Shown: in pieces, positions 20,426 to 47,946 of the stretch
How the letters are laid out: every line of letters starts with the position of its first letter
Numbering within the stretch: position 1 is the stretch's first letter
NCBI GenBank assembly: GCA_039566865.1
Contig: CM076943.1
Coordinates: 36,960,663-37,024,662 of the forward strand
DNA from: Aurelia coerulea
Taxonomy: Eukaryota > Cnidaria > Scyphozoa > Semaeostomeae > Ulmaridae
Direction: 5' to 3'
Length of the DNA: 64,000 bases
Program-made: the position numbers and the translations under genes
The notes under the pieces: model-generated
What the model was told of the DNA's origin: nothing
What the model saw: the letters and a program-made list of their open reading frames with translations, nothing else
The model's database searches: none

Positions 20426-20429
20426 TAAG

Positions 20430-21043
20430 AACTTTCGAAAAATTTGCAGCCTATTCAACACGTCCATTTCTCAAGGTCGATTCCCAGGAAACTGGAAGAT
20501 TGCAAGGGTTTCCCCTATCTACACAGATGGCTCTACCGAAGATAAATCTAACTATAGTCCTATTTCTGTGCTTCCTGTATTTTCACTATTATTTGAAAAG
20601 GTAGTCTTTGATCAGTTATTTAATCATTTTGCTAAGAATGAATTTTTCTACTCATACCAGTCGGGTTTCAGGCTTTTTCACTCTTTATTGACATGCTTAG
20701 TAAAGTGTGCCAATGATTGGTATCTAAATTTCGACAAAGGGCTTTCTACTGGAGTCACTTTTATCGACTTAAAGAATGCCTTTGAAACTGTCGACCACGA
20801 TAATCTCGTCGCTAAGCTGCGTTTTTATGGAGTGCAGCTTGACTGGTTCATATCATACCTAAGTAATAGGAAGCAATGCTGTGAGGTAAATGGCAACATA
20901 TCTGAAATACAAGACATCAAATTTGCAGTGCCTAAGGGCTCCTGCCTTGGTCCACTCCTATTTTTTATCTATATAAATGACTTGCCGTTTGCCTTACAAA
21001 TAACTAAGGTCACAATGTATGCAGATCTATCTCCGACCTAAGC
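20430..21043 (+). pseudogene. LINE reverse transcriptase, 5' half, split by the 26-kb insertion
   Basis: This is the palm of a non-LTR reverse transcriptase. Residues visible include SQGRFPGNWKIARVSPIY (about 20460-20520, in another frame), PISVLPVFSLLFEKVVFDQL, the F-IDLKNAFETVDHD catalytic box, AVPKGSCLGPLLFFIYINDL and MYAD at 21018-21029. There the frame slips and sequence homology jumps to 47349, where the same protein resumes. The 9 bp at 21035-21043 (GACCTAAGC) are the left copy of the duplication left by the insertion. Frameshifts at about 20560 and after MYAD show the LINE is dead. Confidence 0.9.
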
Positions 21044-21640
21044 AAGATAAGGCTCAAATCCTTACTGGTTGCCAGAGTATGCAGAAATCATCTAATTTCA
21101 TGCTTGTCAGCCAATGAGATCACCGCTTTCTAGCCCCTGGAGACAAAATCGGTCGTTTGAGGTAAATTTTATAGTACCCTCACTAAAACTGAAATGGATG
21201 CTAAAATACTTCAGTTATTTCCAATTTGTTTTGATAAATCAGTTGTGGGGATGTCCGTCCAGAGTTGTTTACATGTTTAGGCACATAGCTTGTTTCGGGC
21301 CGGAGCTTCGTTCATTTTCCGGTCGAAGAATATTGACGTTCGTTGAAGTATCTATAGAAATCGCTACAAATGAGATGTACTGATAAGAATTCGCCTTTCT
21401 CATTATTCGTCGAGCACGCAATGCATTGTGGGAGATGTAGTATACGACGACACGTGCGTTATCAAAACAAACAGCGTTCGTATGGAGAGATATCTGGAGA
21501 TATGGAAAAACAAACGAATTCCGATGAAACATCTCCCGTATTTTCTACTGAACCCTACCCTAGTTTTTAAAAAACTCTTGCACGGGTACCGGGATCATTT
21601 AAAGTCAAGAAAAGCCTCTTGAAAGCGTGGAAAATGAGGG
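21044..21640 (+). repeat. Left long terminal inverted repeat
   Basis: The outer ~345 bp (to about 21388) match, inverted, 46997-47348 and both arms of 42884-44575. The inner ~250 bp (21389-21640) match, inverted, 45756-46003. So the original repeat was about 600 bp and the right arm has since been split by the palindrome at 46004-47008. The inner part contains the start of the reading frame shared by both genes. Confidence 0.9.
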
Positions 21641-24424
21641 TAAAGAGAATGAATCTGCAGTGGCAAACCAAGCCATTTGGCCAGAAATCACGGAAACCTC
21701 GTTGTGCGAAGACAAGGGATGGACTATAGATTTATCGAAAATGCCAAAGTTTACAGAAGACAGTTTGAGCAAAAAGTTAATCGAAGATTCTGAAACGATG
21801 CCAGACAAGGTAGCCCCATAAGCGTACCGAAACAAGATGCAGGGTTACAAACTTTGGAAAGAGGGCTATGTTTCACGGGTCAGATTTAAACCTGGTGTAA
21901 CGGCGGGCCTCATCACGTTGTGCCTGGCAAAGGCAAGTGTGTCTGCGTCGATGAAGAGCATAAAATACACTGTGTACTGTCACATGAATCAGGATACAGC
22001 AGAGGTTGTGTCTGCTAAGTGCAGTTGTAAGGCCGGACAAGGTGGATGTTACAAACATGTTGCAGCCCTGCTATACACACTACTGGACTTTTTGAATCTC
22101 GACCTTTCGTATGTTCCAGAGGATGTAACATGTACGCAGGTCCTGCAAAAGTGGAGTATGCCAGGAAAAAAATTGACAGGATATGTAGCTGTAAAGTTCA
22201 CTGACCTTGAATTTGAGAAAACTGATTATGCAAAGGAGAAATCTGTGAAAAGGAAAAGACCAGTTTTAACTGGTAACAGGGATGATTATTGTGCAACTCC
22301 ACCCTTTGGAAGAGAAGTCACTGTAGAAGACATAAGAAAATTATCAGAAGCATTTGAAGCAGCTGGAAGGGCCACATTATTTGTAGCCTCCTTGAAAGGG
22401 AATGATTATTCACCCTGCACAATGTTTGAGACATCCTGCACAAGGAACAATGATGGCGAGGACAGCAACTCTGCAAGGGAAAGTCGCAGCACCACTAGAG
22501 TAGATGTTTTTGACATTATGTCAGCCCAAATTGAAATTGCTGGTCTTGGTATTGAGACAACAGAGAAGATTAAACAAACTGTTGGGGTTACAGTTGATAT
22601 GGTTTTAGTAGAAGTGCTCTCGCTTATTCACAACTATCTTTCGAACAGAAGACAAAGGGTCAAAATTAATGGTTCCTTTAGCACGAGGAAAGAAACTAAC
22701 TTAGGTGTGCCACAAGGCTCGGTGCTAGGGCCCTTGTTATTTAACGTATATACTAACGATTTATTTCTTTTGATGAACGGAACCGAAATATGCAACTATG
22801 CAGATGATACTACCTTATACTCATGCGATTATGAGGTAAGAAATGTGATAACAAGACTAGAGCAAGATGCAAACCGACTAACAGCATGGTTTCCAGAAAA
22901 CTATATGAAATTAAATGAAGATAAATGTCACTTCATTCTTTTTGGGGTTAGCAAAGAAAAAGTTAATATACACGTTGGAGAAGCCCAGATAGAAGAAAGT
23001 GACGAAGAGAAGTTACTGGGCATTAGTCTTGATAAGAAATTAAGTTTTAAAAAGCATGTCCAAACGCTATGTAAAAAAGCTAGTCAGAAGCTTCATGCTC
23101 TTACTCGCATTTCAATCTTCATGGAGTCCGAGAAACTAAAACTGTTGATGAAAACATTCATTATGTCCAAGTTTAGCTATTGCTCGCTGATTTGGATGTT
23201 TCACGATAGAAATTTGAATAATAAGATAAACAGGATACATGAAAGGGCCCTAAGAATCGCATACAAGGACAATGTTTCTAGCTTTGAAAAATTGTTAGAA
23301 ATGGATAATTCGGTAACCGTTCTTCAGAGGAACCTGCAGTTGCTCATGGTAGAGATCTACAAAACAAAATATGATCTAAATCCCAGCTTTATGAAGCAAA
23401 TATTTGAAGAAAAAGAAATGCCTTACAACCTAAGGTGTTCTGATAAACTACAACTACCAAAGGCCAAAACAATTTGCCTTGGAATCGATACAGTCAGATT
23501 TATGGGGAAAAAAGTATGGGAGACACTACCACCAGAACTGAAAAATTCAGATTCCCTTCAGATTTTCAAAAGGCTTATCAAAGCCCATCAATGCCAAGCC
23601 TGCAACTGCAGATTATGTAACATATTTTATCCCAATTTAGGTTTTTTATTGTAAATTATATCTTCACTTGTAATATTATATGTATTTCTCGTGATTAGTT
23701 GGCCTTAATTAGCAATTGTAGCTATATTTTTTAGCCAACTTTAAATGAAAGAATTAATAATAATAATGATCAGTGTTGCATTATTGAGGCAGAAACAAGG
23801 GGGCAAAGCAGCAGCCAAATTTGGTTCTTGAGGTCAAAAGGAAGCACTGCCTCCATGTTTGGAAGGGTGTTGAATCGAGGAGAAAAAATCTTTCTAAAGT
23901 CAATCATTGACACACTTAGAAAAACAAGGGATGGCAAGAAAGGATATGCTGCTTCCCTTGAATGGGGAACTGAGAAGGAAAAAGTTGCACTGGATATCTA
24001 TCAGAAGAAGCATTGCCAAAATGATCTTCAGGCAATGTAAAGTGGTCTCGTCATTAATTCGCAATGGCCCTGGCTTGGTGCTAGCCCAGATGGATTATTA
24101 GTAACAGAGGGAAGAGCTGTTGGTGGAATTGAAATTAAAGGCCCATTCTCCAAGAAAGATGAAACTGTGATTGATGCATGCAAAGACAAGAGGTTTTTTA
24201 TGGAGATGAGTGCTACAGGACCAACACTGAAGGAATCACATGCATACTTTTACCAGTGTCAGGGTGTGATGAACAGAGTGGGATTGGACTGGCTGGATTT
24301 TGTGGTGCACACAGAGAAGGATTTGCATGTTCAGAGACATTCTTGCAAGAAACAATTTTGGAATGAAACAATGCTTCCAAAACTGACCAAATTTTATAAA
24401 GACTTTCTTTTAGACTTGTTGTAA
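21502..24424 (+). pseudogene. SWIM zinc-finger / YqaJ nuclease gene of the transposon (broken)
   Basis: The likely start is the ATG at 21502 (MEKQTNSDE), inside the terminal repeat. After a frameshift (21570-21627) the protein reads ENEGKENESAVANQ through KMPKFTEDSLSKKL. A TAA at 21819 interrupts before AYRNKMQGYKLWKEGYVS. A SWIM finger follows (CSCKAGQGGCYKH, near 22019-22060), then CTQVLQKWSMPGKK. A LINE (22605-23767) splits the gene. Beyond it the YqaJ-type nuclease resumes with EAETRGQSSSQIWF, ASMFGRVLNRGEK, WPWLGASPDGLLV and GGIEIKGPFSK; D in SPDG and E-x-K in IEIKG are the PD-(D/E)XK-type active site. The end is FYKDFLLDLL at 24424. YqaJ proteins are exonuclease-like; a role in transposition is inferred from recurrent pairing with ISL2EU transposases. 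Stops and frameshifts make it non-functional. Confidence 0.9.
22605..23767 (+). mobile_element. 5'-truncated LINE inserted in frame in the SWIM/YqaJ gene
   Basis: From about 22605 the frame becomes reverse transcriptase: LSLIHNYLSNRRQRVKINGS, GVPQGSVLGPLLFNVYTNDL, YADDTTLY, LLGISLDKKLSF, SYCSLIWMFHDR, and the C-terminal CNCRLCNIFYPNLGFLL ending at 23654. The 3' UTR ends in TTAATAATAATAATG (about 23754-23767), a (TAA)n tail typical of CR1/L2-like LINEs. The host SWIM frame runs into it without a stop, giving one 605-codon open frame (21837-23654). The frame is intact from truncation point to stop, so it is relatively young. Target duplication not resolved. Confidence 0.9.
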
Positions 24425-25139
24425 AAATTATGATACCAACACAGCTTTTTAGAACTTTATTGAAGAAGTGGCACATCATGTTTCAAAAGAAGTGTTCTTT
24501 TTAAGGTATATCTCACAACCACCCCTGGCAAAGGTTTATTACAGGTACAATAAAGGTCCTTGCACACATTAACATGGTTTACCTGCCTAACACTTCTTGA
24601 TAATATTATGGCTCAATGATTCTTATCAGGCTTTGAACAAATTTTCGAAAGTTCTTAATGAGTCTTGTGATGTTAATTTGTGCAAGATCTGCACTATTTA
24701 TTTTTAAGCTAAAACTTCTCCAATTTGATATATTTTTGGGTCATTTCAAAATTTCATTGACTTGCCTCAACTATAGAAAAAGAATATTTGAAAGAAATCT
24801 CTGACCATGGTGCAAAACGTTTACCATCAACCAACCCCACAAATTGTCTCAACTACTATGAAGACAATATAATTTTAGGCAAATTCATCTTTTCATTTTT
24901 AACTTGGCAACTACTGAGTCTCCAAAGGAAGTGCACACAGCTTAAAATCACACATAAATTTGATCATCATGCCTGAAGCAAAATTTCTTCTTACTCTGTG
25001 TTATCAAATCAGATTATTGAATGAACAATGTATGCTTTTTTCTATTGATGAAAAGGAAAGAATTGCCTTAAAAACCATAAATGCACACAAAGAAGATTGA
25101 TTTTGTATAAAGTTTTGCGGATTTTTCAAATGTCTTTAC
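24425..25139. other. Convergent intergenic region with arm 2 of the inverted duplicate
   Basis: This lies between the 3' ends of the two transposon genes. 24640-25050 is the reverse complement of 20030-20425. No frame with a domain is visible. Confidence 0.7.
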
Positions 25140-26634
25140 CGGGTGTCCCAAAAAAACGCAACAGATTTGAAAAATTCTACTACAAACTGTTTCATACTCA
25201 TTATTAAACAATCAGTTTTCTTCAAATCTGCAATAATTAGATTAAATTTCGATATATTTTTCAATATTTTTGGTGACTTGGTTGTAGAGTTAAGAATCAG
25301 CAAACTTCAAAATTGCCCCCAGGTCAAAACCAGAGCTGCTGCATTAACAGTGATGATTCATAATGTCAAATTGTAAAACGTGGCAATCCCTGCAATTGCA
25401 AAGAATTGCTGACAAACGCGCAAACACATGATTTAATTGAACATTGAACAGACACTGTCATAAAGATTTCAGTCAAAACACTGCCATGCTTCTTAAAGGA
25501 ATTGAGCCAAGGGGGGGGGGGGTTACTCTGGTATATTCAGGATAGGGATGCCCATGTTACTTTTTTGGGTCTAAAATTTAGGCAAGGATTATTTTTTTGG
25601 GTCAATGATTTGTACAGTTATTTTTTTGGGTTCAAGAAATTCTGGCTTACTTTTTTGGGTCTCAAATATGAGAAAAAGTAAAAAATTAGGGAAAATATAA
25701 TTTACAAACAGAATTAGAGCCAAATAACAGTACTAAAATAAAACAACATAAATATCCAAACACATTATGAGAAATCTAATCAGTTAGGGCACTTTTATGC
25801 AAATTTAAGATACTGACGTCATAACTGTTGGGTATATGTAAGGTCAGAACATTATTTTTTTGGGTCTATTAACATGCTAGAAATTACTTTTTTGGGTTGA
25901 TGCGTTGTACACCAGCCTGAGCACCCCTATCCTAAATATGCCTGAGCACCCCCCCCTGGGGAATTGAGTCCATATAAATAGCTGAGCGTTAACGTTATGC
26001 TGACAAACTACTGACGGCCCTTTGTTATCGCATAATTGTGCTAAAGTCATTAGTAGTGGAGACCAAAGGCTTCTTAATCCTTGCATTATCCTCAGGAATT
26101 TCTTTGGTTTCATTTCAATAGAGATTAAATCACAACTTTTGTTTTATGATTGAAAAGAAGCTGATATTGGTCACGAACGCGCTATTTATGGGGACTCAGT
26201 GCCTTTAAGTGTAAATGATGGTTGCTTGCTTTTTCTAAATGACTAGGCCATTATTAGATTTATACTTTCAATTATCAATGAACACTGAAAGCCCCCTCAA
26301 GAATGGATAACTCATGAATCTGTAAATGGTCCCTTTGTTGCAGTTTCTTAAAGAAGTTGTGTGCTTGTAATCATGTAAAGTTTCAGATATGGCCATTCTT
26401 TTAACTTTACAGTATACTTTGCACTAATGCTGATAGCTCTGGTTTTGCCCTAACGGCAAGTTTGAAGTTTGTTGATTTTTAACTCTTCAATCAAGTCACC
26501 AAAAATTCTGAAAAATATATCAATATTTAATCTAATCATTGCAGATTTAGATAAAAATAATCATTTGATTATTAATTTGAAACAGATTCCGTCAGAATTT
26601 TTTTTAATCTGTTGCGTTTTTTTGGGACACCCGG
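25140..26634. mobile_element. TA-flanked transposon with ~200-bp inverted repeats
   Basis: The ends are CCGGGTGTCCCAAAAAAACG and the inverse TTTTTTTGGGACACCCGG, with TA at 25138-25139 and 26635-26636. The arms 25140-25345 and 26435-26634 pair (shared GATTAGATTAAAT, TTTTTGGTGACTTG, CAAAACCAGAGCT). It is related to the element at 14466-15004. No transposase is recognisable, so it is non-autonomous. It lies between the YqaJ gene and the 3' end of the DDE gene and itself carries another element (25507-25960). Confidence 0.88.
25507..25960. mobile_element. G-run element with perfect 8-bp duplication
   Basis: It starts CCAAGGGGGGGGGGGG and ends CCCCCCCCTGGG, flanked by GAATTGAG at 25499-25506 and 25961-25968. 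Subterminal copies of TTTTTTGGGTC and a GGATAGGG/CCTATCC pair are inverted. An 8-bp duplication fits hAT-like or P-like transposition. The same family occurs at 51460-51769 (complete) and 13262-13560 (broken). Confidence 0.85.
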
Positions 26635-26679
26635 TACAAGTGCATCCTGGGACAACTGGTCCAGTCTATGAATGACTAC

Positions 26680-26975
26680 TTATTCATTAGCAATTAGTGT
26701 AAGTAACAAATTGGTAAGATAAGCACTAACAATCCATATTCTATTCAAGTCTGCAGCCATTGTGATAGGGAATATTGTTCTCAAAATCCTAAATGTCTTT
26801 ATGCTACGAATAGCTCGCTCAACATGCACTCTAACTGAAGTAATGCACCTTGTCTCAGTTTCTTCTTGCAGTGTCACTCAGGGATGCTTTATCATCTAGA
26901 AATGGAGGAATGTTCAAGTATGTGTTTGGTGGGAGATCATCTTCAATTGTGAAGCCTTTATTTGCCATTTAAATT
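26680..26975 (-). pseudogene. DDE_Tnp_4 transposase, C-terminal piece
   Basis: The minus strand reads MANKGFTIEDDLPPNTYLNI, PPFLDDKASLSDTAR, then after a one-base shift ETRCITSVRVHVERAIRSIK, TFRILRTIFPITMAADLNRI and WIVSAYLTNLLLTLI. In DDE_Tnp_4 (PF13359) transposases, D/N-KGF precedes the third catalytic region and the glutamate of HVERAI is the E of the DDE triad. The preceding residues (GRHSDKAITKDCGLYTLLEE) are found at 42815-42883, so the gene was split here by the 15.8-kb block. Confidence 0.9.
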
Positions 26976-28229
26976 AGAAGACCATGAGATATAGACACGT
27001 GTTGGGCCAAAGTTGTATTTATTGCTAAAGACAACTTACAGAATACTCCCATAAGACTAATACTACTACTAACATTAAAATACAACAATTGCAAACAATT
27101 AATCTAAAACAACAATAAGATACCTAAATAGTGTATATTGAATTTGAATGAATATGAAATATTCCCCCAAATCCAAAGGATAATGTGGAATGGTTGTTGT
27201 GGATGTGGGTTGTGGCATAAAGTGTATATTGGTTTGTTTAGGTTGAAACCTTACCTAGCCTGGCCCTGAAGTACAGAGGGATAGGTGCTTGCAAATGGAG
27301 AATTATACGATTATATGTACCACTGAAGCATAGCCGTTAGCTGGAAGGTAGACCCAGAGTTGGGGTGTGTGCGCCCCCCCCATATGCTGTTGAATGCTGT
27401 TGCAGGATATAAACCTGTTTAGGGGTAGCCAGGAGCAACATAGGGTCTGAGTTGGTGAATTGGTGACTTAACGCCAGTTGAAGCTGCGAGGCTCCTAGAA
27501 CCAAGAAGCCCAGGTCGAAAACAAGGGTGTCACGACATACTCCCAATGATACGAAGGCATGAAGGAGGAGCTAGCCTAGATGGTTTGGAACAAAATTACA
27601 GCAGCATGGGATGAAGGACCATGAGCCGGTGTATATGTTTGCGAGGGTGACAATTGAACCTATGTGAAGCAACATGGTTTGTACCACTTACTACGGAATG
27701 CTTGTACCGGACCAAAGCTGTGCAACACATGAAGGCGTGGCTTAGTGCCAACAAGATGAATCGTATTCAGATGCATGCAGAGAAACTATACCAAAGAGCT
27801 GTTTCTCTAAGGCCTGTTGTTGTAGGCGGTGTTGAACAAGCTTATGGCTGGAATAAGCATATACGAAAAAATGTATGGAAGCAGTTGCGAAAACATACAC
27901 AGAATGCTTGTGTGAGAGCCGTTGCAAAAACATAAACGGATTGCATGTACCAGACCAAAGCAGTGCAGCACATGAAGGTGTGGCTTGAAGCGCCAACAAG
28001 AAGAATCAAAATGCAGATGCAGGAAGAGAAACTGTACCCAAGGACTGTTTCCCTATAGGCCTGTTTGTGTTAGCTGTGTTGAATATAAACCCGACTGATG
28101 CACAAGCTTTGGGCTGGAACATAGTTGCTGTGACATGGGATGAAGGACCATCAGCCTGTGTTAATGTTAGCGAGGGTGACCATTAAAAAGCTATGTGAAA
28201 GCAAAATGGTTTTGTGCGGGGGACCGTGA

Positions 28230-30150
28230 CAGTGGCGTCGTGGGAGCATGATTTTAGGGGGGGCCAAGGGTCAGAATTTTCCGACAAAGACACATTTTTC
28301 CGACAAAAATGAAGCAGGAATATAACGTATAAAAAGTGGCAAAATGTCGCAGAACTTTAGTCATATAAAAGTTCCATGATAGCGAAGAATTTTTCAAAGG
28401 GACACAGCAGTCCTGTTAAGAGGCGATTCTTGTTGGAGGTGAGGCTGTTGTCGAGACGTGATTGATGTTGGGGGTGATGCTGAAGCTAGATGCGCAAGGA
28501 GGGAGGAAAACTGGGGGTCCGGGGGCTTGCCCCCGGGAAAATTTTCTGTGACCACGCCCTTTAGATCGTTGCAAAACGCCCCTATTTTGAAGAATCTACT
28601 GTTTGTTTTTCATGGGAAATTTCGAAAAAAGGACCTCAAAAGCGCTGAAAAATAGATCGTTTTCAAATTTTAGATAACAACGTGATAGCTTGATATAAAT
28701 CTTCATTCCTATAAGCATCCGTTTACAGAAACTGACAGTAGTTCCATCTTAGTACTCGGAGTTCAAATTGATAGCAAACTTTCCTTCGATAATCATGTTT
28801 CCAAATTGTGCCAAAAGGCTAGCAATAAACTTTATGCACTTGCTCGCATATCCCCATACATGGATCAGAGCAAACTAAGAACACTCATGAGGGCATTTAT
28901 TACCAGTCAGTTTCAATATTGTCCTTTAATCTGGATGTTTCACAGCAGGCAGCTTAACAAAAAAATTAACAAAATACAGGAAAGGGCTTTGAGAATTACT
29001 TATAAGGATGCCGAATCTACTTATAGTGAGCTATTAGAGAAGGACTGTGCCGTTACTATTCATACAAAGAACTTGCAGCTACTTATGACTGAAATGTACA
29101 AAACTAGAAATGACCTGAACCCTTCATTCATGCAGGAAATTTTCTGTGAAAATGAAAGTCATTACAATCTGCGCAACAATAACGAATTCTTTCAACCTAG
29201 GGTGAGATCTGTCAACAACAGGACAGAAAGCATCCGTTTCAAAGGTCCGCAGCTGTGGCAAATGTTACCACCAACGATACGTAGTTCAGAATCCCTTTGT
29301 CAGTTTAAAACAAAAATAAAAAGTTGGAACGGAGAAAATTGTCCATGCAAATTATGCCGCGTTTTTATTCCGAATTTGGGCTTTTTATGATGAATATTAT
29401 TAGATATCTACTTTTACTTTTACACTGTATACTTTTAATGATTTGTAAATATTTTATCCACTATTTTTCTTATGTAATATTTGTATTTTAATGTTTTAAA
29501 GTTGGAATAAATTAGCTAATTACTTTTAGCTATCTTTTGTCATTTATAATCCAACAATAAAGAAATTGATAATAAATAATAATAATTAGTAATCATTTCC
29601 ATCTTCCTCAACAATATTCACTTGTGCAAATTCTGACGAGCAACTCATTGAAAGCTTAATGCACAAACCATAAATGCATGACATTTTGTAAGTATGAAGC
29701 GTGCAAAATGAATTGTAAATTTATCGTTTTTAACCACCAAAATGAAGGTAAAACGACCGATTTTTCGGGGAAAACTCCAGGAATGTTTTGACCGAAAGCA
29801 TTTGTCTGAAATTTCTTCGTCCGAAAATTTTGCGCCTATTGTGTCTATTTTTCCAATAGAAAACACACTTTTCTATCGATTGAAAAAGGAATTTTTTGCA
29901 GAAAAACGAACGAAGGACCTAGTTTTTTGCCGAAAGACCTACTTTTTCATCAAAAACTACGTTTTCGCGACCGAAAAAGCGATATTTCATGTACACATTT
30001 CGATTACCATAAAGTAGCTATGTAAAGAAAATAGGTTAATTCAATTTTTTTCGATTTTCCGACAAGAGTGGAAAACTGACGAATTTTCCGACAACATTTT
30101 CACAGGGGGGGCCATGGCCCCCCCTGGCCCCCCCGGCCACGACGCCACTG
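28230..30150. mobile_element. hAT-type element carrying a LINE tail
   Basis: Ends CAGTGGCGTCGTGG and CCACGACGCCACTG with a perfect 8-bp duplication GACCGTGA (28222-28229 and 30151-30158). The target is the 305-bp repeat. Subterminal TTTTCCGACAA motifs are inverted at the two sides (28278-28305 and 30055-30090). There is no hAT transposase; the centre is occupied by a LINE 3' end. Confidence 0.92.
28747..29590 (+). pseudogene. LINE 3' end (reverse transcriptase thumb to tail) inside the hAT element
   Basis: The frame begins at LVLGVQIDSKLSFDNHVSKL and runs open through CPLIWMFHSRQLNKKINKIQ, ERALRITYKDAEST, YNLRNNNEF, and the terminal CPCKLCRVFIPNLGFL (stop at about 29390). The 3' UTR ends in an AATAATAATAAT tail near 29570-29590. 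It is heavily 5' truncated; the catalytic YADD is absent. The same LINE family occurs inverted at 51842-52330, with nearly identical SVNN/RTESIRFKGPQLWQ wording. The frame itself is undamaged. Confidence 0.9.
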
Positions 30151-30940
30151 GACCGTGAACCGTAGCGAAAACATATACTGACTGCTTGTACCAGACCAAA
30201 GCTGTGCAGCACATGAAGGTGTGCTTGAAGCGCCAACAAGATGAATTGAAATGCAGATGCAGGCAGAGAAACTGTATTAAGGGCTGTTTCTCTATAGGCC
30301 TTTTGTTTTAGGCTGTTTTGAACAATAACCTACTGATGCGCAAGCTTTGGGATGGAACAAAATTACTGCGACATGGGATAAAGGACCATGAGCCTGTGGA
30401 TGGTTTGTGAGGGTGGCCATTAAACCTATGCGAAAGCAACATGGTTTTGTGCGGGGTACCATGAACCGTTGCGAAAACATATACGAACTGCTTGTACCAG
30501 ACCAAAGCTGTGCAGCCCATGAAGGTGTGCTTGAAGCACCAACAAGATGAATTGAAATGCAGATGCAGGCAGAGAAACTGTAGTTAGGGCTGTTTCTCTA
30601 TAGGCCTGTTGTTTGAGGCTGTTTTGAACAATACCTACTGATGTGCAAGCTTTGGGCTGAAACAAAATTACTGCGACATGGGATGAAGGACCATGAGCCT
30701 GTGTGAATGGTTTGTGAGGGTGACCATTAAACCTATGCAAAAGCGACATGGTTTTGTGCGGGGGACCATGAACCGTTGCGGAAATTTATGAAATGCTGCC
30801 CCAGACCAAAGCTGTGCAGCACAGGAAGGTGTGGCTTGAGCGCCAACCAGATGATTCAAAATGAAGCTGTATAGCTAACCTGTAGTTCAAGGCTGCACGA
30901 AAAACCTACTGATGAGCAAGCTTTGGGCTGGAGCAAAATG

Positions 30941-31770: not shown

Positions 31771-31779
31771 GATGCCAGC

Positions 31780-37470: not shown

Positions 37471-37497
37471 TACCGCTCAGGCAGTAGTAATATAGAC

Positions 37498-37615
37498 TAG
37501 GAATCCGAACCCGCGCTGCGCGCGGGTTCGGAGTTCCTAGCTCCTGCGGAGGGCTTGGGCGCCTTCGGCGCCCGGGCCGCCTGCGGCGGCCACTGTCGCG
37601 CTCCGCGCGCCACAA
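37498..37615. repeat. Four consecutive GC-rich hairpins
   Basis: CCGAACCCGCGC-TGC-GCGCGGGTTCGG (extended by AGGAA/TTCCT with one bulge), then GGGCGCC-TTC-GGCGCCC, GGCCGCC-TGC-GGCGGCC and GCGCG-CTCC-GCGCGC follow each other directly. The island is over 70% GC in surroundings near 40%. Confidence 0.85.
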
Positions 37616-37769
37616 TATCAGTACTTTCAGTGTTATTCTCTTCGTTGGTATTATTGCTTTATACTTGCTCTTGTTATCCGTCATTGTTTGTAGTTACCTT
37701 AGCTGATGTAGTTGCATTGGTAGATGAAGTGAGAATAGTTGCCGCAGTTCTTCACGTACCTGAAGTGTG

Positions 37770-37930
37770 TTAGTTGTAGGCCTTAATTAGCAGTAGGCCT
37801 TAATTAGTAGTAGGCCTTCTTAGTAGGCGTTAATTAGCTCTGGTAGCCTGAATTAGTTGTAATTTTAGCTATTATTTTCTAGCCTACTTTAAATAGATTA
37901 TTGATAAATAAAAATAATAACAAAAATAAC
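37770..37930 (+). repeat. LINE 3' UTR remnant
   Basis: TTAGTTGTAGGCCTTAATTAG, TTTTAGCTATTATTTTCTAGCC and ACTTTAAATAGATTATTGATAA followed by AAAAATAATAAC parallel the 3' UTR of the LINE at 23660-23767. The GGCCTTAATTAG phrase is repeated three times. No coding part is attached. Confidence 0.65.
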
Positions 37931-39062
37931 AATGTCTATAGTTATTACAGTTAACTTTATTCTCTTCCTTTTTCATTAATTCACATTTTTTGTTATTGTT
38001 TTCTAGCTATCCTCTTTACTTTAATGGCGTTAGTAGCACAAGGGCGGGGTAGGGGAGCGGTGGTTTGCATTTGATTGAATCCATAATATTTTAAAGAAAA
38101 TTCCATAAAAATTCCCTACAAAGCCCATTGTTTTAAAGAGTCCCGTAGGCTTTTTGGAAAGAGAGATAGACCCCTTGGCTTCCTCAGGCAGCTTTGTGTC
38201 AGTAGGGTTGATTTAGTTGCCTGGTAATTGTTCACTTAGGTGTTTGTTTCTTATGTGGCGTTAGTAGCCTTCGTTGTTTGCCTTTGTTTTAGTGTATGTG
38301 CTATTTGTTTGGTAGAAATAATGTAGTCGTAATTCTTGGCTTAGCGGCCATAGTAGCTTTTTGCCGTTATTGACGGTACCATTGTTGTTGTGGTAGCGTT
38401 GTTCATTTGGTTGCCCAAGTAGCGTTTGTTGCGTTGACCCCTTGATTTAATGAAGTTGCTCTTCTTGCGTCATTGCCGTAAGTTGCAGTTGCATTTCGTG
38501 ACGTTGTGATTATTATGACCGCTTCGGTAGATCTCCAGTCTCCCTACTCGTAGAGCTTTATTTGTTCCAGTAGAGTTGATATAGATTCCTTCGTTGCCCT
38601 AGTTTTCTTTCTTTCTTATGTGGCGTTCGTAGCGTTTGTTGTGGGAGAAATTAGTTGTTAACTTCGTTTTGGTATGTGCGTTATTTGTTTAGTAGAGAAG
38701 ATGTAGTCGTAGTTGCCATAGTGGCCGTAGTAGCTTTTGTGCCCTTAGTTGCTATCCTTGCGTTATTAGTGTTATTTGTGCAAGGTAAACCTCGCTGTTT
38801 TGGTTGCATTAGTTGTTGAAGTTCCTCCCAGTAGCTTTAACTCCGTCCATTAATGTAGTTGCTCTTCTTGGCTGAGTTCCCTTAGTTGCATTTGCTGACG
38901 TTGTTGTTATTTTAGAGCGTTTCCATAGATCTTAACCTCCCTTGTGGAAGATAACATCAGTTAGGAAGACTGGAAGAGTTATACTCAGCCCTTGGAGGAA
39001 AGTTTTCAGGAAATAGTGAAGGAAATGGACTGCTCATGCACAGGGGCATTTGTGGGGGAAAG

Positions 39063-39215
39063 TTGGCACAGTGCCAAATGACGTCACATAATTTGGCAAA
39101 GTGCCAAGTCACATGACCGGAACTTGGCACCGTGCCAAGTCACATGACCAATTTTGGAACTTTGCCAAGTAAGTCACGTCACATGGGGGTAGACACGTGA
39201 CTGCCCCCAACTAAT
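39063..39215. promoter_or_regulatory. Second NFI/CRE/E-box cluster
   Basis: TTGGC-N5-GCCAA at 39063-39077, 39093-39107 and 39124-39138, plus a one-mismatch site at 39154-39168. TGACGTCA follows the first site, GTCACATGAC follows the second and third, and CACGTGAC lies at about 39195. The spacing of sites is about 30 bp, as in the 36488 cluster. Single further sites are at 40693-40707 and 41888-41902. Confidence 0.6.
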
Positions 39216-39253
39216 GTGAGATAGTATGACTGCCCTCACAGTGTAGCCTCCTT

Positions 39254-40099
39254 TTGTATGGGATAGGTCATTTGAAATTAGCCAATAAGAGTCGGCTATT
39301 ATGTTTAGTAAGTTCAGTATGGAGTTTGTACCAATTAAAATTAGCCAATGGCAATCTGCCTATGCTAGATGGGTTGGGTCATTTGAAATTAGCCAATAAC
39401 AGTCAGCTTTCATCTTTAGTAGCTTCACTATGGGGCTTGTACCAATTGAAATTAGCCAATGGCAATCAGCATATGCTAGATCGGTTAGGTCATTTGAAAT
39501 TAGCCAATAACAGTCGGCTTTCATCTTTAGTAGCTTCACTACTGGGTTTGTACCAATTGAAATTGGCCAATGGGAATCTCCATATGGTAGATTGTTTCGG
39601 TCATTTGAAATTAGCCAATAACAGTCGGCTTTCACCTTTAGTAGCTTCACTATGGAGTTTGTACCAATTGAAATTAGCCAATGGCAATCTGCCTATGCTA
39701 GATGGGTTGGGTCATTTGAAATTAGCCAATAACTGTCAGCTTTCATCTTTAGTAGCTTCACTATGGAGTTTGTACCATTTGAAATTAGCCAATGGCAATC
39801 TGCATAAGGTAGGTGGGTTGGGTCATTTGAAATTAGCCAATAACAGTCGGCTTTCGTCTTTAGTAGCTTCCCTATGGGATCTGTAGCAATTGAAATTAGC
39901 CAATGGCAATCTGCATATGCTAGATCGGTTTGGTCATTTGAAATTAGCCAATAACAGTCGGCTATCATCTTTAGTAGCTTCCCTATGGGGTCTGTACCAA
40001 TCCAAATTAGCCAATGGCAATCTGCATATGGTAGAGGGGCTAGGTAATGTGAAAATAGCTAACAGGAAGTACCTTTTGTCTTTCCTGGATAAGTGCTGA
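39254..40099. repeat. ~120-bp tandem repeat with CCAAT motifs, open in one frame
   Basis: About seven units, each made of two ~60-bp halves beginning TTGAAATTAGCCAAT. AGCCAAT (a CCAAT-box core) appears about 14 times. Because the unit is a multiple of three and lacks stops on +, 39254-39886 stays open for 210 codons (repeating LKLANNSRLSSLVASLWGLY), and 39890-40099 continues in another frame. The minus strand is also open for long runs. There is no similarity to a known repeat protein; I treat it as DNA repeat rather than gene. Confidence 0.85.
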
Positions 40100-42410
40100 C
40101 TGCTGCGCACAATAACCTCTGTGCAGGTGAACGTATTCATTATGCATTGAAGTAATGAGCAACTAATGATGTGATCGTCCTTATAACGATTGTTTCCCGG
40201 AGAAGTGGCTTCCTAATGATCTTGGCACGATTAACTTCCTACCTAATGATCTTGGCACGATAAAATTACCTGCAAAATCTGTTGCGTCGTAAGATTTGGT
40301 CGTGCAGATGAGCTTTAGTTGACCGCTGAATGTTAGGATAGTGATTCGTGAAGTTGAAATATCTACAGGAGTGTTTGTTTGGGGAGTAGATCTTGGAAAA
40401 CAGCGATTATGGAATTTAAATTGGATGAAATTACCTTGGGGGAAAAACTGATGGGAATTCAACGGAAGTTTCAGAATGAAGAGCATGGAAGTGAAACGTA
40501 AGTAGGCCTATGTTTTCGCTGGAGCAGGAAGAAAGCTGGAGTTATATGCTACTTGCGTATTTTTCGCGACAGAGCAGTGTTACTTCTTGCTTCAGTAGAG
40601 GGGAATAGGCCTAACTTGTTGTTTACTTCCACATTGAGCTCACTCAAAACGTAGGGACTTGCCAAGTCACATGATAGGTCACATGACCAATTTTGGCAAC
40701 GTGCCAAGTTAGTCACGTGACATGGGGTGCCATCATGTGACTGCCCCCAGTCAGTTTTCCCATTGTTTTTGTGGAGGTGAGCCCCAACTGTTGGGGAGGA
40801 GGACATGAGCCCCTGTGAGGTTCATTGCGTGACGTCGGTGTTACGTAGCCCCTAGGTTGTTGACAATCCAGCATTGTTTTCTGTTGACAAACCGATTTTG
40901 TCCGTTGACGACCCTTGATGACCCCATCAAGAGTCGTTAGTGACTCACCTCGATTGTTCCGTGACGTTCGACGTACGTCAAACTGGAAAATAGGATGTCT
41001 GCCAAAAAGTTTCCCCGCTCCTACCCCAGCTCGAGTGGCTGCCCCCAACTTCCCACATACATTCCACAAACTTAGATTTTCGGGGCGATTTTCGGAGAGG
41101 AAGAGCGGCGGCGAGGGGGCACGGGAAGGTGGAGATCCCGGCAGAGCAGACACATTAATTCGAGGACAATGGAACAATCTTAACCGACCTCTCACCCGTT
41201 ATATATAAGAAGGTTATGTGAAAATAGCCAACAGGAAGTACCTTTTGTCTTTGGTGGATAAGTGGTGAATGCTGCGCACAATGACCTCTGTGCAGGTTAA
41301 CGTATTCATTATGAATTGAAGTAATGAGCAACTAATGATGTGATCGTTGTTATAAAGATTGTTTCCCGGAGAAGTGGCTTTCTAATGATCTTGGCACGAT
41401 GAACTTCCTACCTAATGATGTTGGCACGATAATATTACCTGCAAAACTGTTGCGACATAAGATTTGGTCGTGCAGATGATCTGTAGTTGACCGCTGAATG
41501 TTAGGATAGTGATTCGTGAAGTTGAAATATCTACAGGAGTGTAGGTTTGGGGAGTAAATCTTCGAAGATAGCGATTATGAAATTTAAATTGGATGAAATT
41601 ACCTTGGGGGAAATAAAAGTGAAGGGAATTCAACGGAAGTTTCAGAAAGCAACAGGATGGAAGTGAAACGTAAGTAGGCCTATGTTTTCGCTGGAGCAGG
41701 AAGAAAGCTGGAGTTATTTGCTACTTGCGTATTTTTCATGACGGAACAGTTTTACTTCTTGCTTCAGATGGGAATAGGCCTAACTATACTCGTTGTTGAC
41801 TTCCATATTGAGCTCACTGCAAAACGTAGGGACTTGCAAAGTCACATGATAGGAATTGGGGGGTTGTGCCGAGTCACATGATCAATTTTGGCAACGTGCC
41901 AAATGAGTCACGTGACATGGGGTGCCATCACGTGACTGCCCCCAGTCAGTCTTCCCATTGTTTTTGTGGAGGTGAGCCCCACCTGTTGTGGAGGAGGACA
42001 TGAGCCCCTGTGCAGTTCCATTGCGTGACGTCGGTGTTACGTAGCCCCTAGGTTGTTGACAATCCTGCATTGTTTGCTGTTGACAAACCGACTTTGTCCG
42101 TTGACGAGCCTTGACGACCCCATCAATAGTCGTTAGTGACTCACCTCCATTGTTCCGTGACGTTCAACCTACGTCAAACTGGAAAATAGGACGGCTGCCA
42201 ATAAGTTCCCCCGCTCCTACCCCAGCCCGAGTGGCTGCCCCCAACTTCTCACACAGATTTGGCTAACTTAGATTTTCGGGGTGATTTTTCGAGAGGAATT
42301 GCGGCCGCTAGGGGGCAGGGGAAGCAGGCGATCCGAGTGGAGCACACACACAAATTCGAGGACAAAAGAACAATCTTAGCCGATCGTGCACCCGTTAGTA
42401 TATAGATATG
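40046..42410. repeat. 1.17-kb tandem direct duplication
   Basis: 40046-41205 and 41213-42410 align end to end: GTGAAAATAGC(T/C)AACAGGAAGTAC at the starts, GATTGTTTCCCGGAGAAGTGGC, TCCCATTGTTTTTGTGGAGG, and a final TTCGAGGACAA...GAACAATCTTA...CCGTTA(T)ATA. The left copy is fused to the last CCAAT-repeat unit. Frames of 90-160 codons inside (for example 40713-41195, minus) are conserved only because the DNA is, and carry no domain. Confidence 0.92.
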
Positions 42411-42814
42411 AAAGGATGGTAACACATCGCTGATGATTGCAAATGGGACCCCATGAGGCCCAAGGGCCCTTTGGGGGCCGAAGATTGACTGAGAAAATGT
42501 TTGTTGCGATGAAAATGCCAATTTTCGAGAACTGATCAGAGAATCTGAGCACAGGCTTATATAGTATAGCCAGACTAGGCCAATATGGAAGGAGGAAGTA
42601 CATCTCCAATATGATTGGCTGAGTGATGCTGACGTGCATGATTACGAAACAGAAACCAATTTTGACACATGGTTTCTGTGGGGGAGTATCCTCATGACTG
42701 CCACAATGGGCTGACAAGGTAAGCAGCAATATCCTAGCTATTGCAACTTAGGCCGACCTCACAGTTCCCTAATTTAAACTCACATTAAGGCAACCTGCCT
42801 CAATGTATACAAAC
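42411..42814. other. No supported gene
   Basis: Right-hand edge of the 15.8-kb block. A minus-strand frame (42376-42729) has no recognised motif. Confidence 0.4.
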
Positions 42815-42883
42815 AGAGTCACCCTCCTCCAAAAGAGTATACAATCCGCAATCTTTTGTAATTGCTTTATCACTATGGCGGCC
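42815..42883 (-). pseudogene. DDE_Tnp_4 transposase, middle piece
   Basis: The minus strand reads GRHSDKAITKDCGLYTLLEE then GDSV. It directly continues FVSDLYA at 44585 onward once the foldback element and one 9-bp duplicate are removed; SDLYAGR-x-SDK carries the second catalytic Asp region of this family. The next residues (MANKGF) are at 26970. Confidence 0.92.
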
Positions 42884-44575
42884 AAGATAAGGCTCAAATC
42901 CTTACTGGTTGTCAGAGCATGCGGAAATCATCCAATTTCATGCTTGTCAGCCAATGAGATCACCGCTTTCTAGCCCCTGGAGACAAAATCGGTCGTTTGA
43001 GGTAAATTTTCTAGTACCCTCACTAAAACTGAAATGGATGCTAAAATACTTCAGTTATTTGCAATTTTTTTTAATAAATCAGTTGTGGGGATGTCCGTCT
43101 AGAGTTGTTTACATGTTTAGGCACACAGCTCGTTTGGGGCCGGAGCTGCGTTCATTTTCCGGTCGAAGAATATTGACCTTTGTTGAAATATCTATAGAAA
43201 TCGCTACAAATGAGATATACAGATAGGAATTTCAGCGATTACGCATACTGACCTTAGCAATAACCGAAACTCTTTCACTGCTATCATATCTCAAAATTGG
43301 AGGCAATTTCTAACGATTTCTGGTAGAGACATCATTTGGGCCTAAGCTTGTCCTCGCTTAAAACTCATTCCATTGCACTTAAAAAATAATGGTTTAAGTT
43401 CTTGAGCTAGATAATGCACTTACCCATGACTCAGACACCAGTTTGACTTCGTTTGCCTTCTTTAATTTGCCAAATTTTTGTAAGAAACAACCAGTTGTGG
43501 GCGAATTGCAAAAACTTTCCTCGGTCCATATTTTTCTCTACACAGATTTTCCGCTTCAAACAACAAACAGTGAACTTTGACATTGTATCATAAAAGTCTT
43601 GCATCACAGAACATTCCTTTTGAACGATTCCATGCGCTTTAGCGAGGCACTCGTGAATTGTATTCACGCATTTCGTTCTTTTCGTTCTTATTTCAATCAA
43701 TGCAAACATAAAAGAACAAAACATTGTTTTGGGTTCGCTAAAAAAGATACCCGGTTTGGCACTTTTGTTTGTTTGCATTGACTGATTGAACCAAATGCGT
43801 GAAAACAATTCACGAGTGCCTCGCTAAGGCGCATGGAATCGTTCTATATGAATGTTTTGTGATGCAAGACTTTTATGATACAAAGTTCACTGTTTGTTGT
43901 TTGAAGCGGATAGACTGTGCAGATAAAAATATGGACCGAGGAAAGTTTTTGCAATTCACCCACAACTGGTCGTTTCTTATAAAAATTTGCTAATTTAAAA
44001 AAGGCAAACGAAGTCAAACTGGTGCCTGAGTCATGGGTAAGTGCATTATTCAGCTCTAGAATTTTACCATTACTTTTTAAGTGCAATGGAATGAGTTTTA
44101 AGCGAGGACAAGCTTAGGCCCAACTGATATCTCTACCAGAAATCATTAGAAATTGCCTGCAATTTTGAGATATGATAGCAGTAAAGGAGTTCGGGTTATT
44201 GCTGAGGTCAGTATGCATAATTGCTGAAATTCTTATCTGTATATCTCATTTGTAGCGATTTCTATAGATATTTCAACGAAGGTCAATATTCTTCGACCGG
44301 AAAATTGACGCAGCTCCGGCCCCAAACAAGCTATGTGCCTAAACATGTAAACAACTCTGGACGGACATCCCCACAACTGATTTATCAAAAAAAATTGCGA
44401 ATAACTGAAGTATTCTAGCATCCATTTCAGTTTTAGTGAGGGTACTAGAAAATTTACCTCAAACGACTGATTTTGTCTCCAGGGGCTAGAAAGCGGTGAT
44501 CTCATTGGCTGACAAGCATGAAATTGGATGATTTCCGCATGCTCTGACAACCAGTAAGGATTTGAGCCTTATCTT
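42884..44575. mobile_element. 1.69-kb foldback relative of the same transposon family, inserted in its DDE gene
   Basis: AAGATAAGGCTC at the left and GAGCCTTATCTT at the right; flanks ATGGCGGCC (42875-42883) and ACGGCGGCC (44576-44584), a 9-bp duplication with one difference. Each ~345-bp outer arm is an inverted copy of the other and of the big element's termini. The centre (43232-44227) is an imperfect palindrome of about 1 kb flanked by AATT. There is no coding capacity; it must have been mobilised in trans, presumably by the family's DDE transposase. Confidence 0.93.
43232..44227. repeat. ~1-kb near-perfect palindrome, copy 1
   Basis: Begins TCAGCGATTACGCATACTGACC and ends in the inverse (GGTCAGTATGCATAATTGCTGA), flanked on both sides by AATT. 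The arms, each about 490 bp, share GTGCCTCGCTAAGGCGCATGG, CAAAGTTCACTGTTTGTTGTTTG and others, and meet near 43730. A second copy is at 46004-47008. A 4-bp AATT duplication suggests it is itself a foldback transposon. Confidence 0.9.
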
Positions 44576-45971
44576 ACGGCGGCCAGCATACAGATCAGAA
44601 ACAAAAGTAACATTCCCTGAAGGAGCAATGCCAATCACGCCTTTTGCAGTGTTGTGGTGCTTGTAATGAGAATATGACTCACTTTGAGTCCTGAGGGAGC
44701 TTGGCATTTCTATGAAAATTCCTGTTGCATCTATTATCACTCGAGTTGTGGGATAAGTTTCTTTAAAAGATTTTCGAATTGTTTCATCAACAGTTTGGCT
44801 TTATGCCCAAATTGGCAAGGAACGAAATCTTGCGTGGAGAAAATCTATCCAAGTTATGAATATCCTTGAGTAATGTGCAACATGGGCAATGTCAGCCTCA
44901 AGTAATCAACAACGTAATCTCACTAAAACAAGAAACAACTCTTGCTCAGCAGGTAGTGACCTCCTTGGCCCACGCTTGCTTCTATCCTCCTTCAGACTCT
45001 CTACATTTGTGTTGGATTTATGATAAATCAGTTTCTCTGCAGCAGGTAAAAAGGACTCAAACAAGATTTTAAAAGTCTCATATTCCTTCAAGCCTGTTTA
45101 AAAATGAAATTTCTCACTGACATCTTTTATGCTCTCAACGGAAAGAGAAATCTTTGCAGTTCTGTCTTTCATAAAATTGTTTTCAGTTTGTAGCAAATCA
45201 TTTTTTTGTTGCGCCTGTCCCATTTCCTCTTCATGCTTCAATTTTAGCAAATCTAGCTGTGCTCTCAGAACAGCTAACTCCTCACCATTATCAGATTGAC
45301 TTTCTGCAGTGATACTTGTATATCCCTCTAGCTCCTTGTTGCCCTCTCGAGAAGTTGATTTCCAAGGAACGTTTGGATTTCGGTTCCTCGACTTTGTTGT
45401 TCTTCTTGGATTTGAAATAGTGGGCCTGGTTTTCTTTGGAACTATGAGGAGAAAATTGTTCATGTAAGTTTTTTGTCCTCCTGGAAAATGCTCTGAGCAC
45501 GATCTGTGACCTTTAGTAGGAGCGAAGTCCTTTCTGCTGATTAGTGAAATCCATCGCTTCCTTAACTCTATTTTTTCTGGTCCAACACCACTTGGAAAAG
45601 AGTAAAACCTCAAATGTTTGTTTTTCTTAGAATGGCTATAGCAATTTGGAACACAGCATATTAACCCACCACCAAGTCTACTCGATCTTCATAAGAACCG
45701 ACCTTCCCACTTTCAATTTGCAAATCACGAGAACCAGCACCTTCTTCCAAAGATCTCACGCTGCCATTTTCTCTTTCCAGAGGCGTTTCTTCACCTTGAA
45801 TGCTCCCAATACCCGTGCAAGAGTTTTTAAAAAAACTATAGGGTAGGGTTCAGTAGAAAATACGGAAGATATTTCGTCGCAATTCGTTTGCTTTTCCATA
45901 TCTCCAGACATCTCTCCATACAAACGCTGTTTGTTTTGACTGCGTCTTATACTACAACTCCCATAATGCAT
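44576..45971 (-). pseudogene. THAP-HTH-DDE_Tnp_4 transposase, N-terminal part
   Basis: The start (MEKQTNCDEISSVFSTEPYP, near 45880) lies in the terminal repeat and leads through KTLARVLGAFKVKK. After frameshifts a THAP zinc finger appears: CCVPNCYSHSKKNKHLRFYS, RKRWISLISRKDFAP, HRSCSEHF (C-x3-C and C-x2-H ligands present). A Lys/Gln-rich coiled coil follows (LRAQLDLLKLKHEEEMGQAQ). Next come SLPAEQELFLVLVRLRC and SRIFITWIDFLHARFRSLPI, a helix-turn-helix domain of the HTH_Tnp_4 type. Then VIIDATGIFIEMPSSL with the first catalytic Asp, YSHYKHHNTAKGVIGIAPSG and FVSDLYAGR, where the foldback copy interrupts. THAP binds the transposon ends and DDE catalyses strand transfer in this family. Several frameshifts and stops (for example after VRLRC) prevent expression of a whole protein. 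Confidence 0.92.
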
Positions 45972-47348
45972 TGCGCACTCGGTGAATAAGGAGAAAGGCG
46001 AATTTCAGTGATTATGCATACTGACCTGAGCAATAACCCAAACTCCTTCACTGCTATCATGTCTCAAAATTGGAGGCAATTTCTAATGATTTCTGGTAAA
46101 GACATCATTTGGGCCTAGCCTTTTCCTCGCTTGAAACTTTGCAACATTGCACCTAAAAAATTATGGTAAAATTCCTGAGCTAGATTATGTACTTACCCAT
46201 GACTCAGACAAAAGTTTGACTTCGTTTGCCTTTTTTACATTGGCAATTTTTTGTAAGAAACATCCAGTTGTGGGCGAATTAGAGAAACTTTCCTCGGTCC
46301 ATATTTTTCCCTGCACAGTCTCGCCGCTTCAAACAACAAACGGTGAACTTTGACATTGTATCATAAAAGTCTTGCATCATAGAACATTCCTAGAGAATGA
46401 TTCCATACGCCTTAGCGAGTCACTCGTGAATTGTTTTCACGCATTTGATTCAATCAGTCAATGCAAACAAACAAAAGAGCAAAACCGGGTATCTTTTGTA
46501 GCGAACCCAAAATAATGCTTTGTTCTTTTTATGTTTTGGATTGATTGAAATTTGAAAGAAAAGAACAAAATGCGTAAAAACAATTCATGAGTGCCTCGCT
46601 AAAGCGCATGGAATCGTTCAAAAGGAATGTTCTGTGATTCAAGACTTTTATGATACAATGTCAAAGTTCACTGTTTGTTGTTTGAACCGGAGAGACTGTG
46701 CAGAGAAAGATATGGACCGAGGAAAGTTTTGGCAATTCACCCACAACTGGTTGTTTCTTAAAAAGAATTGCCAAAGTAAAAAAGGCAAACGAAGTCAAAC
46801 TTTTGTCTGAGTTATGGGTAAGTGCATTATCTAACTCAAGAATTTTAACATAACTTCTTAGGTGCAATGGAATGAGTTTCAAGCGAGGAAAAGCTTAGGC
46901 CCAAATGATGTCTCTACCAGAAATCATTAGAAAATGCCTCTCCGTTTGAGATATGATAGCAGTGAAGAAGTTTGAGTTATTACTCAGATCAGTATGCATA
47001 ATCGCTGAAATTCTTATATGTATATCTCATTTGTAGCAGTTTCTATAGATATTTCAACGAAGGTCAATATTCCTCGACCGGAAAATGAACGAAGCTCCGG
47101 CCCCAAACAAACTATGTGCCTAAACATGTAAACAACTCTAGACGGACATCCCAACAACTGATTTATCAAAACAAATTGGAAATAACTGAAGTGTTTTAGC
47201 ATCCATTTCAGTTTTAGTGAGAGTACTAGAAAATTGATCTCAAACGACCGATTTTGTCTCCAGGGGCTAGAAAGCGGTGATCTCATTGGCTGACAATTGG
47301 ATGATTTCTGCATGCTCTGGCAACCAGTAAGGATTTGAGCCTTATCTT
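45756..47348 (-). repeat. Right long terminal inverted repeat, split by a palindrome
   Basis: 45756-46003 and 47009-47348 together pair with 21044-21640. They are separated by the palindrome 46004-47008 with AATT at both sides (46000-46003 and 47009-47012); the left arm reads AAGAATTCGCC without interruption, confirming the insertion point. Confidence 0.9.
46004..47008. repeat. ~1-kb near-perfect palindrome, copy 2
   Basis: Starts TCAGTGATTATGCATACTGACC and ends with the inverse; the arms meet near 46490. It is homologous to 43232-44227 over its whole length, with scattered substitutions. The 4-bp AATT duplication is perfect and the empty site is preserved in the opposite terminal repeat (about 21388-21394). 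Confidence 0.92.
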
Positions 47349-47946
47349 GACCCAAGCAATGCTATCAACTCAGATATTCAGAATCTTTGTTCGTGGCTAC
47401 AGAGAAATAAACTGTCTCGCAATGTAGCAAAGACACAGAGCATGATCCTTGGTACTGCACCCAACCTCAGAAGACTAGATTGCAATGATTCAACCAATTT
47501 TCCTGCTTTTTTCAAAAAAATGACAAAAAGATTGAATCTACGGGCAATAGATTCCTTGATATGAACCTTGAGGTACAAATTGATCCGTTACTGAAGTGGA
47601 AAGAGCAAATCAACATTGCTATCGGTAAGATTTGACGAGGAATAGGAATACTCAAGCATTCCAAGAAATATCTTTTGTTGGAAACCATCCAAACGATGTA
47701 TTATAGTATAGTAGATTCGCATCTTAGATATTGCTGCTCTGTTTGTGGCTGTGCTGGTGATACCATACTTAGAAAATTGCAAAAGCTGCAAAATCAAGCA
47801 GCGCGTGTCGTTATAAATAGTCCATTTGATCAAACATTGTTGCCATTAATATCACAGCTAGGGTGGTTAATATCACAACAAGAAGTGACTGACTTTGAGA
47901 GAGCTTGTATAGTTTATAAAGCCTTGAATGGGCTTGCACCTCCCTA
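47349..47946 (+). pseudogene. LINE reverse transcriptase, 3' half of the split gene
   Basis: Reads DPSNAINSDIQNLCSWLQRN, KLSRNVAKTQSMILGT, then after frameshifts VQIDPLLKWKEQINIAIG, HSKKYLLLETIQTMYYSIVD, LRKLQKLQNQAARVV and KALNGLAPPY, the usual order after YADD in CR1/L2-like reverse transcriptases. At APPY it runs into an (ATA)n microsatellite (47947-47985) instead of continuing, so the C-terminus is lost. Confidence 0.9.

Follow-up and report, generated by a model that had tools for sequence, protein, structure and literature searches.

What has inserted itself into a reverse-transcriptase gene when more than 26 kb of foreign DNA separates its two halves, and do the outermost ends of such an insert belong to the genes found inside it? 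The question is raised by a 64,000-nucleotide stretch of the Aurelia coerulea genome (the window, C1:36960663-37024662; searches covered the assembly of 574 Mb in 294 contigs), in which a long interspersed nuclear element (LINE) is split by an insert carrying the gene pair of an ISL2EU transposon. A first-pass annotation had taken the entire insert for one 26.3-kb ISL2EU transposon with AAGATAAGG ends and a 9-bp target site duplication. It is almost certainly something else: a palindromic foldback transposon split by an ISL2EU element of another family, which has in turn been decayed by nested insertions. The nesting itself is directly observed, as are the two empty sites, the two sets of ends and the family to which each end belongs.

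The outer break is one insertion event with a clean empty site. The LINE reverse-transcriptase open reading frame (ORF) spans 20340-21041, with an RVT_1 match of 6.1e-16 over 20340-21038 in a domain search; the insert occupies 21044-47348, and the LINE resumes at 47358. The flanks GACCTAAGC and GACCCAAGC are equal at 8 of 9 bases (chance of at least 8/9, ~1.4e-4 at the local base composition), and the insert, whose inverted termini are AAGATAAGG, reads AAGATAAGGCTC...GAGCCTTATCTT at its ends. Removal of the insert and one 9-mer in silico, a check suggested earlier, restored the LINE and gave a 745-bp query that was searched against the assembly, with 40 of 651 candidates scored. Two of the 43 matches are the window's own halves, and 36 of the 41 others run through the join; the remaining five fall short of 30 bp on one or both sides of it, and some of them are fragments of a single broken copy. 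Partial sequences of three other LINE copies were aligned; in these the 9-mer is single-copy (GACCTGAGC) and the LINE is continuous on both sides. The boundaries originally claimed, with termini at 21044 and 47348 and 9-mers at 21035-21043 and 47349-47357, are right, and the two halves, whose derivation from different LINE families would have spoken against them, belong to one family. The loss of the reading frame after MYAD had been attributed to the transposon, which is wrong: relative to the three aligned copies, the window LINE lacks 28 bp, lost separately some 10 bases ahead of the 9-mer, and the frame fails because of this deletion.

The ends of the insert belong to a large family. The 12-base terminus AAGATAAGGCTC occurs 551 times in forward and 528 times in reverse orientation in the assembly, compared with 10 and 7 for a reversed-pattern control, which is equivalent to the ends of roughly 540 copies. 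Tabulation of end pairs and their flanking 9-mers, which had also been proposed, was carried out on pairs picked by hand among the first 100 listed places (all on C1), in forward-reverse order, no more than ~11 kb apart and with the exact 12-base terminus at both ends; the 34 stretches fetched gave 35 pair readings, as L017 has two forward ends. The 9-bp flanks were identical in 24 of these and matched at 8/9 in three (27/35 at 8/9 or better) and at 6/9 or less in eight, compared with a 9/9 match in 0.2% of swapped pairs (n=1190). L031 and L032, both among the 24 perfect pairs, share one flank and are probably a single insertion copied later. As pairs with identical flanks at separate places on C1, L018/L019 and L031/L032 are probably duplicated loci in which the surrounding DNA was copied.

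Twenty-two of the end pairs enclose 1640-1770 bp, and their majority consensus of 1693 bp aligns over its full length to its own reverse complement at 92%. Within each of these copies one half matches the other at 91-97% identity, with arms of ~845 bp, and the Kimura two-parameter distance (K2P) from the consensus is no more than 2% in 9 of the 22. The longest ORF in the consensus encodes 111 amino acids (aa). Duplications of 8-10 bp and inverted repeats longer than 100 bp, the hallmarks of Mutator-like elements (MULEs) and foldback elements, are both present, the entire 1.69-kb element being palindromic; the family is a non-autonomous foldback element that is MULE-like in structure. No tandem array scoring at least 50 lies within the window's two copies. 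No transposase for the family was found among ORFs of at least 80 aa read by eye in L021, L034 and L039-L040, longer end pairs that contain other insertions, LINEs among them; L019, L028 and L042 were left out of this reading, and no search covered Merlin or P transposases. MULE-domain matches number 105 genome-wide, with 150 of 224 candidates scored, and the two on C1 lie more than 150 kb from each of the first 100 listed foldback ends, giving no link to the family ends. The family was probably mobilised by cut-and-paste, with a MULE-type transposase encoded elsewhere.

Together, the two outer pieces of the insert make one copy of this family, referred to here as foldback no. 1. Their 345 and 1347 bp sum to 1692 bp, and the rejoined sequence aligns with the 1693-bp consensus from one end to the other, with 1502 of 1673 compared positions identical (K2P 0.11, computed with one extra base at the join) and no gap near the join. 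The rejoined copy gives the empty site GATAAGAATTTCAG, the same as in the consensus. All 22 genome copies, the longer L014 included, are uninterrupted at this position: 21 read AATTTCA, and L027 has a point change. The two arm ends of foldback no. 1 differ from the consensus equally, by 4.3% and 5.0%.

Between these pieces lies an ISL2EU element with termini of its own. Its inverted ends match at 85-89% over the first 100-235 bases compared, and the empty site shows a 2-bp AT duplication in A|AT|T, as in ISL2EU, the duplication around the whole of 21044-47348 being one of 9 bp rather than AT. The genes are convergent, SWIM/YqaJ on the plus strand and a THAP/HTH/DDE transposase on the minus strand, so that the element has both the transposase and the second ORF with a YqaJ nuclease domain that characterize ISL2EU. 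The gene pair named in the first-pass annotation is accordingly supported, by domain matches and by tblastn, in which the pieces of both genes keep their order on either side of every interruption. The transposase matches THAP (7e-11) and DDE_Tnp_4 (1.6e-12), and more weakly HTH_Tnp_4; the YqaJ domain scores 44 bits with one internal stop in the genome search (C1:36984490-36984933), and the open part of this piece on its own falls just short. Relative to the Pfam cut-offs, DDE, THAP and the YqaJ match of the genome search are above, and SWIM, HTH and the open YqaJ part, all from broken pieces, are below. The first codons of the tblastn match at 42889-42812 extend into a second foldback copy described below.

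Relatives of this element are present in the same genome. The closest, L084 (C1:32032800-32040600), matches the transposase fragment at 84% and has the same convergent two-gene order, with both genes open (585 and 580 codons, stop to stop) and THAP, HTH and DDE domains all above cut-off; its ends adjoin AAT by alignment with the window. More distant relatives, at 57-62% over the transposase fragment, have AGGCC ends next to AAT, and AAT stands beside A-GGCC at 12 of the 12 distinct relative ends found. This AAT is read as an AT duplication because AT is the published ISL2EU target. A protein search with the L084 transposase matched 389 proteins; among the 120 listed, 11 carry an organism name, all cnidarian (Rhopilema, Hydractinia, Hydra, Dendronephthya, Exaiptasia and Paramuricea). 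Two other relatives, L085 (C2:15653800-15660400) and L086, are 99.7% identical over 4.4 kb, and this sequence identity suggests recent activity of their family.

Several observations weigh against the reading of a foldback copy split by ISL2EU. The core of foldback no. 1 is 13-16% from the consensus, compared with 4-5% at the ends, a contrast that points to a different subfamily or to partial conversion, so that its single K2P value is no measure of age. The 9-mers around the outer and the inner foldback each have one mismatch, and no transposase is tied to the palindromic family. At the inner break, AATT may be read in place of AT, both yielding the same empty site, and the window ISL2EU ends start with TCGCC, not with the usual GG, the distant relatives having AGGCC. 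Among those relatives, AAT is constant and thus not separable from the terminal sequence by flanks alone; no such end was found in L070, L075 or L076 or, on its YqaJ side, in L086, and L084 has its ends delimited only through the alignment with the window.

A single 26.3-kb ISL2EU transposon would account for the position of the ISL2EU genes between AAGATAAGG ends and for the 9-mer in the flanks. It is nevertheless highly improbable, as the outer 345 and 1347 bp make up a full 1.69-kb copy from a different family, the genes have their own inverted ends at 21391 and 46001 with AT, and both the genome relatives and published ISL2EU elements use AT (PMC4482050). Of the original proposal, the presence of later insertions within the 26 kb holds; the ends and the 9-bp duplication assigned to ISL2EU pass to the palindromic family. 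The 9-bp duplication as the mark of a new ISL2EU variant was also considered and was dropped once the outer pieces were placed in the 1.69-kb family and the inner ISL2EU ends were found. Because published ISL2EU gives AT, and the superfamily to which it belongs makes duplications ranging from none to 4 bp (PMC4482050; PMC10045372), the 9-bp duplication is not that of ISL2EU. Joining of outer ends from two different copies through ectopic recombination, conceivable in a family with many copies, is just as hard to credit, given that the 9-mers match, the LINE is uninterrupted after the join and the complementary pieces make one element.

The order of the two outermost events is a different matter, since nesting by itself leaves it undecided. 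Foldback no. 1 might already have held ISL2EU when it entered the LINE, both having moved as a composite; L034 (with a LINE) and L039-L040 likewise hold foreign DNA between ends with perfect 9-bp duplications, the order being open there too. Long elements usually move less well, which counts against this alternative, and no second composite copy was found among the listed C1 places; a composite is considered unlikely. Also unlikely is the broader proposal that the palindromic foldback serves as a recurrent landing pad and vehicle for unrelated transposons, with the nested ISL2EU carried by the foldback's transposase. If true, it would provide a natural composite of two superfamilies.

In the favored explanation, ISL2EU insertion into a foldback copy, the LINE was entered by a fully palindromic, non-autonomous, MULE-like foldback of 1.69 kb, and the 9-bp duplication arose from this event. 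An ISL2EU element with THAP/DDE transposase and SWIM/YqaJ genes interrupts the foldback copy at base 345 and is bordered by an AT duplication at an A|AT|T site. The ISL2EU element has decayed through further insertions, probably for the most part in place: the YqaJ gene was hit by a LINE and the transposase gene by a second foldback with a 9-bp duplication of its own, a TA-flanked element lies between these two genes, and the end of the transposase is cut off by a 15.8-kb block that contains an element with a 9-bp duplication. The second copy, foldback no. 2, is flanked by ATGGCGGCC and ACGGCGGCC, which match at 8/9, so that one foldback family is both carrier and invader of the ISL2EU element. 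At the edges of the 15.8-kb block no duplication was found, there being no direct match of at least 5 bases between them. Within the block, a direct repeat of ~1.2 kb, 89% identical, lies at 40042-42404 and adjoins a 111-bp tandem array at 39258-40059. All features are collected in the table.

Features of the split LINE and of the nested elements between its halves (window coordinates; a full point marks features given without strand)
Feature	Position	Strand	Basis or remark
5' part of split LINE reverse-transcriptase ORF, closing with left 9-mer	20340..21043	+	RVT_1, genome matches
Left 9-bp target site duplication, GACCTAAGC	21035..21043	+	
Left 345 bp of foldback no. 1	21044..21388	+	15/345 differences from 22-copy consensus
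Left AT duplication of ISL2EU insertion	21389..21390	+	Empty site GATAAGAATTTCAG in foldback consensus
ISL2EU element, 24.6 kb including present insertions	21391..46001	.	Own inverted ends TCGCCTTTCTC...
SWIM/YqaJ gene, first part	21558..22598	+	tblastn 54% to L084 protein; SWIM match weak, under cut-off
Partial LINE (3' part of reverse transcriptase) in YqaJ gene	22599..23740 (approximate)	+	RVT_1 4e-16 over 22617-23585; splits YqaJ homology
SWIM/YqaJ gene, second part with YqaJ domain, one internal TAA	23741..24397	+	tblastn 53%
LINE fragment	24638..25040	-	94.6% identical to 20038-20446
TA-flanked inverted-repeat element between the two ISL2EU genes, ends CCGGGTGTCCC	25139..26634	.	Ends and TA by eye
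ISL2EU transposase, C-terminal piece	26744..26968	-	tblastn 45% over residues 512-585, including 76% over 38 aa
Block of ~15.8 kb separating transposase pieces	26969..42811	.	Falls between residues 511 and 512 (L084 numbering)
Element with long terminal inverted repeats in 15.8-kb block, ends GGCCAGGTCGAAAAC	31780..33722	.	Identical 9-bp flanks GATGCCAGC; ends by eye
ISL2EU transposase, middle piece	42812..42883	-	tblastn 85% over 26 aa (42889-42812)
Foldback no. 2 in ISL2EU transposase gene	42884..44575	.	1692 bp; K2P 0.014 to consensus
ISL2EU transposase, THAP, HTH and start of DDE_Tnp_4, in-frame stops	44579..45676	-	tblastn 59%
Other 1347 bp of foldback no. 1	46002..47348	+	First 2 bases are the AT duplication
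Right AT duplication of ISL2EU insertion	46002..46003	+	Foldback consensus comparison
Right 9-bp target site duplication, GACCCAAGC	47349..47357	+	
3' part of split LINE	47358..47947	+	Coding homology to ~47947; tblastn with related LINE from L034; joined-flank search

Part of the order of insertion is certain from nesting. The LINE is older than the insertion of foldback no. 1, which is older than the ISL2EU insertion into it; the LINE in the YqaJ gene, foldback no. 2 and the 15.8-kb block are later than an intact ISL2EU gene pair; and the element at 31780-33722 is younger than the DNA around it. Nesting is compatible with ISL2EU having joined foldback no. 1 before or after the arrival of the latter in the LINE. 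That inner insertions predate the landing of ISL2EU at this site is unlikely for the gene-breaking ones, because a broken, enlarged copy would have needed help in trans. The earlier estimate of about ten ordered insertions comes close in number, as eight insertions and the LINE can be counted; the order is less complete than was claimed. Clean ends are seen in only five of the insertions: the two foldback copies, ISL2EU, and the elements at 25139-26634 and 31780-33722.

Elsewhere in the window, an element at 2122-3510 with ends like GGCCAGGTCGAAAAC is flanked by a perfect 9-bp duplication at 2113-2121 and 3511-3519. This 9-mer, AAGATAAGG, equals the foldback terminus, perhaps due to a neighboring tandem repeat of similar sequence. 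An array of a ~248-bp unit (16.8 copies, 76% matches) occupies 15005-19182, with related copies on either side extending over 14097-19342. At 56867-59317 on the plus strand, an open frame of 816 codons has P-element-type domains (TNP-like RNase H, 4.5e-30; GTP-binding insertion, 1.9e-17) and, judged from these matches, may encode a nearly intact P-like transposase.

All parts of the locus are of known kinds, and it is best regarded as an ordinary case of mobile elements nested in one another, though one that can be read unusually well, of value for its corrected anatomy and partial insertion order. Its most interesting features are the palindromic foldback family and the way in which this family and ISL2EU are nested in each other. 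The locus also illustrates that an empty-site reading can get the boundary right and the element wrong, as outermost ends need not belong to inner genes. Taken at face value, it would have presented an ISL2EU element with a 9-bp duplication; the corrected reading leaves intact the rule of none to 4 bp given for the superfamily (PMC10045372). The foldback family itself, large and easily recognized in an animal genome, should help to trace insertions and to find its transposase.

Published ISL2EU elements carry transposase and YqaJ ORFs, duplicate AT in A|AT|T, and have ends that usually start with GG (PMC4482050). They belong to the PHIS superfamily and share with the window element the THAP/HTH/DDE and YqaJ ORFs, the A|AT|T target, inverted ends and an animal host. 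They average ~4.8 kb (PMC4482050), whereas the window element has reached 24.6 kb through insertions, has TCGCC ends and has both genes broken. No 9-bp duplication for ISL2EU was found in the open literature, the PHIS paper reporting AT (PMC4482050), and no nested transposon paired with ISL2EU was found there. The foldback family resembles Tm1, a Mutator/Foldback element of root-knot nematodes, in its long inverted repeats, mostly 9-bp duplications and non-autonomous copies, and arm identity is similar, ~93% on average in Tm1 and 91-97% here; it differs in that the entire 1.69 kb is one palindrome and that no transposase-bearing copy was identified, and Tm1 is further described as having composite motifs (PMC3169594). 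Muta1 and other animal MULEs have long terminal inverted repeats, 8-9 bp duplications and hundreds of non-autonomous copies in common with it, and Muta1 also comprises a transposase-bearing copy and carries subterminal tandem repeats, neither of which was identified for the foldback family (for repeats, arrays scoring at least 50 in the two window copies) (PMC5225508). The nesting, finally, recalls that of maize and rice MULEs, in which transposons lie inside transposons, some of them in coding regions; the invaders of maize MULEs are mostly long terminal repeat elements, whereas in the jellyfish window one foldback family is both carrier and invader (PMC3903597).

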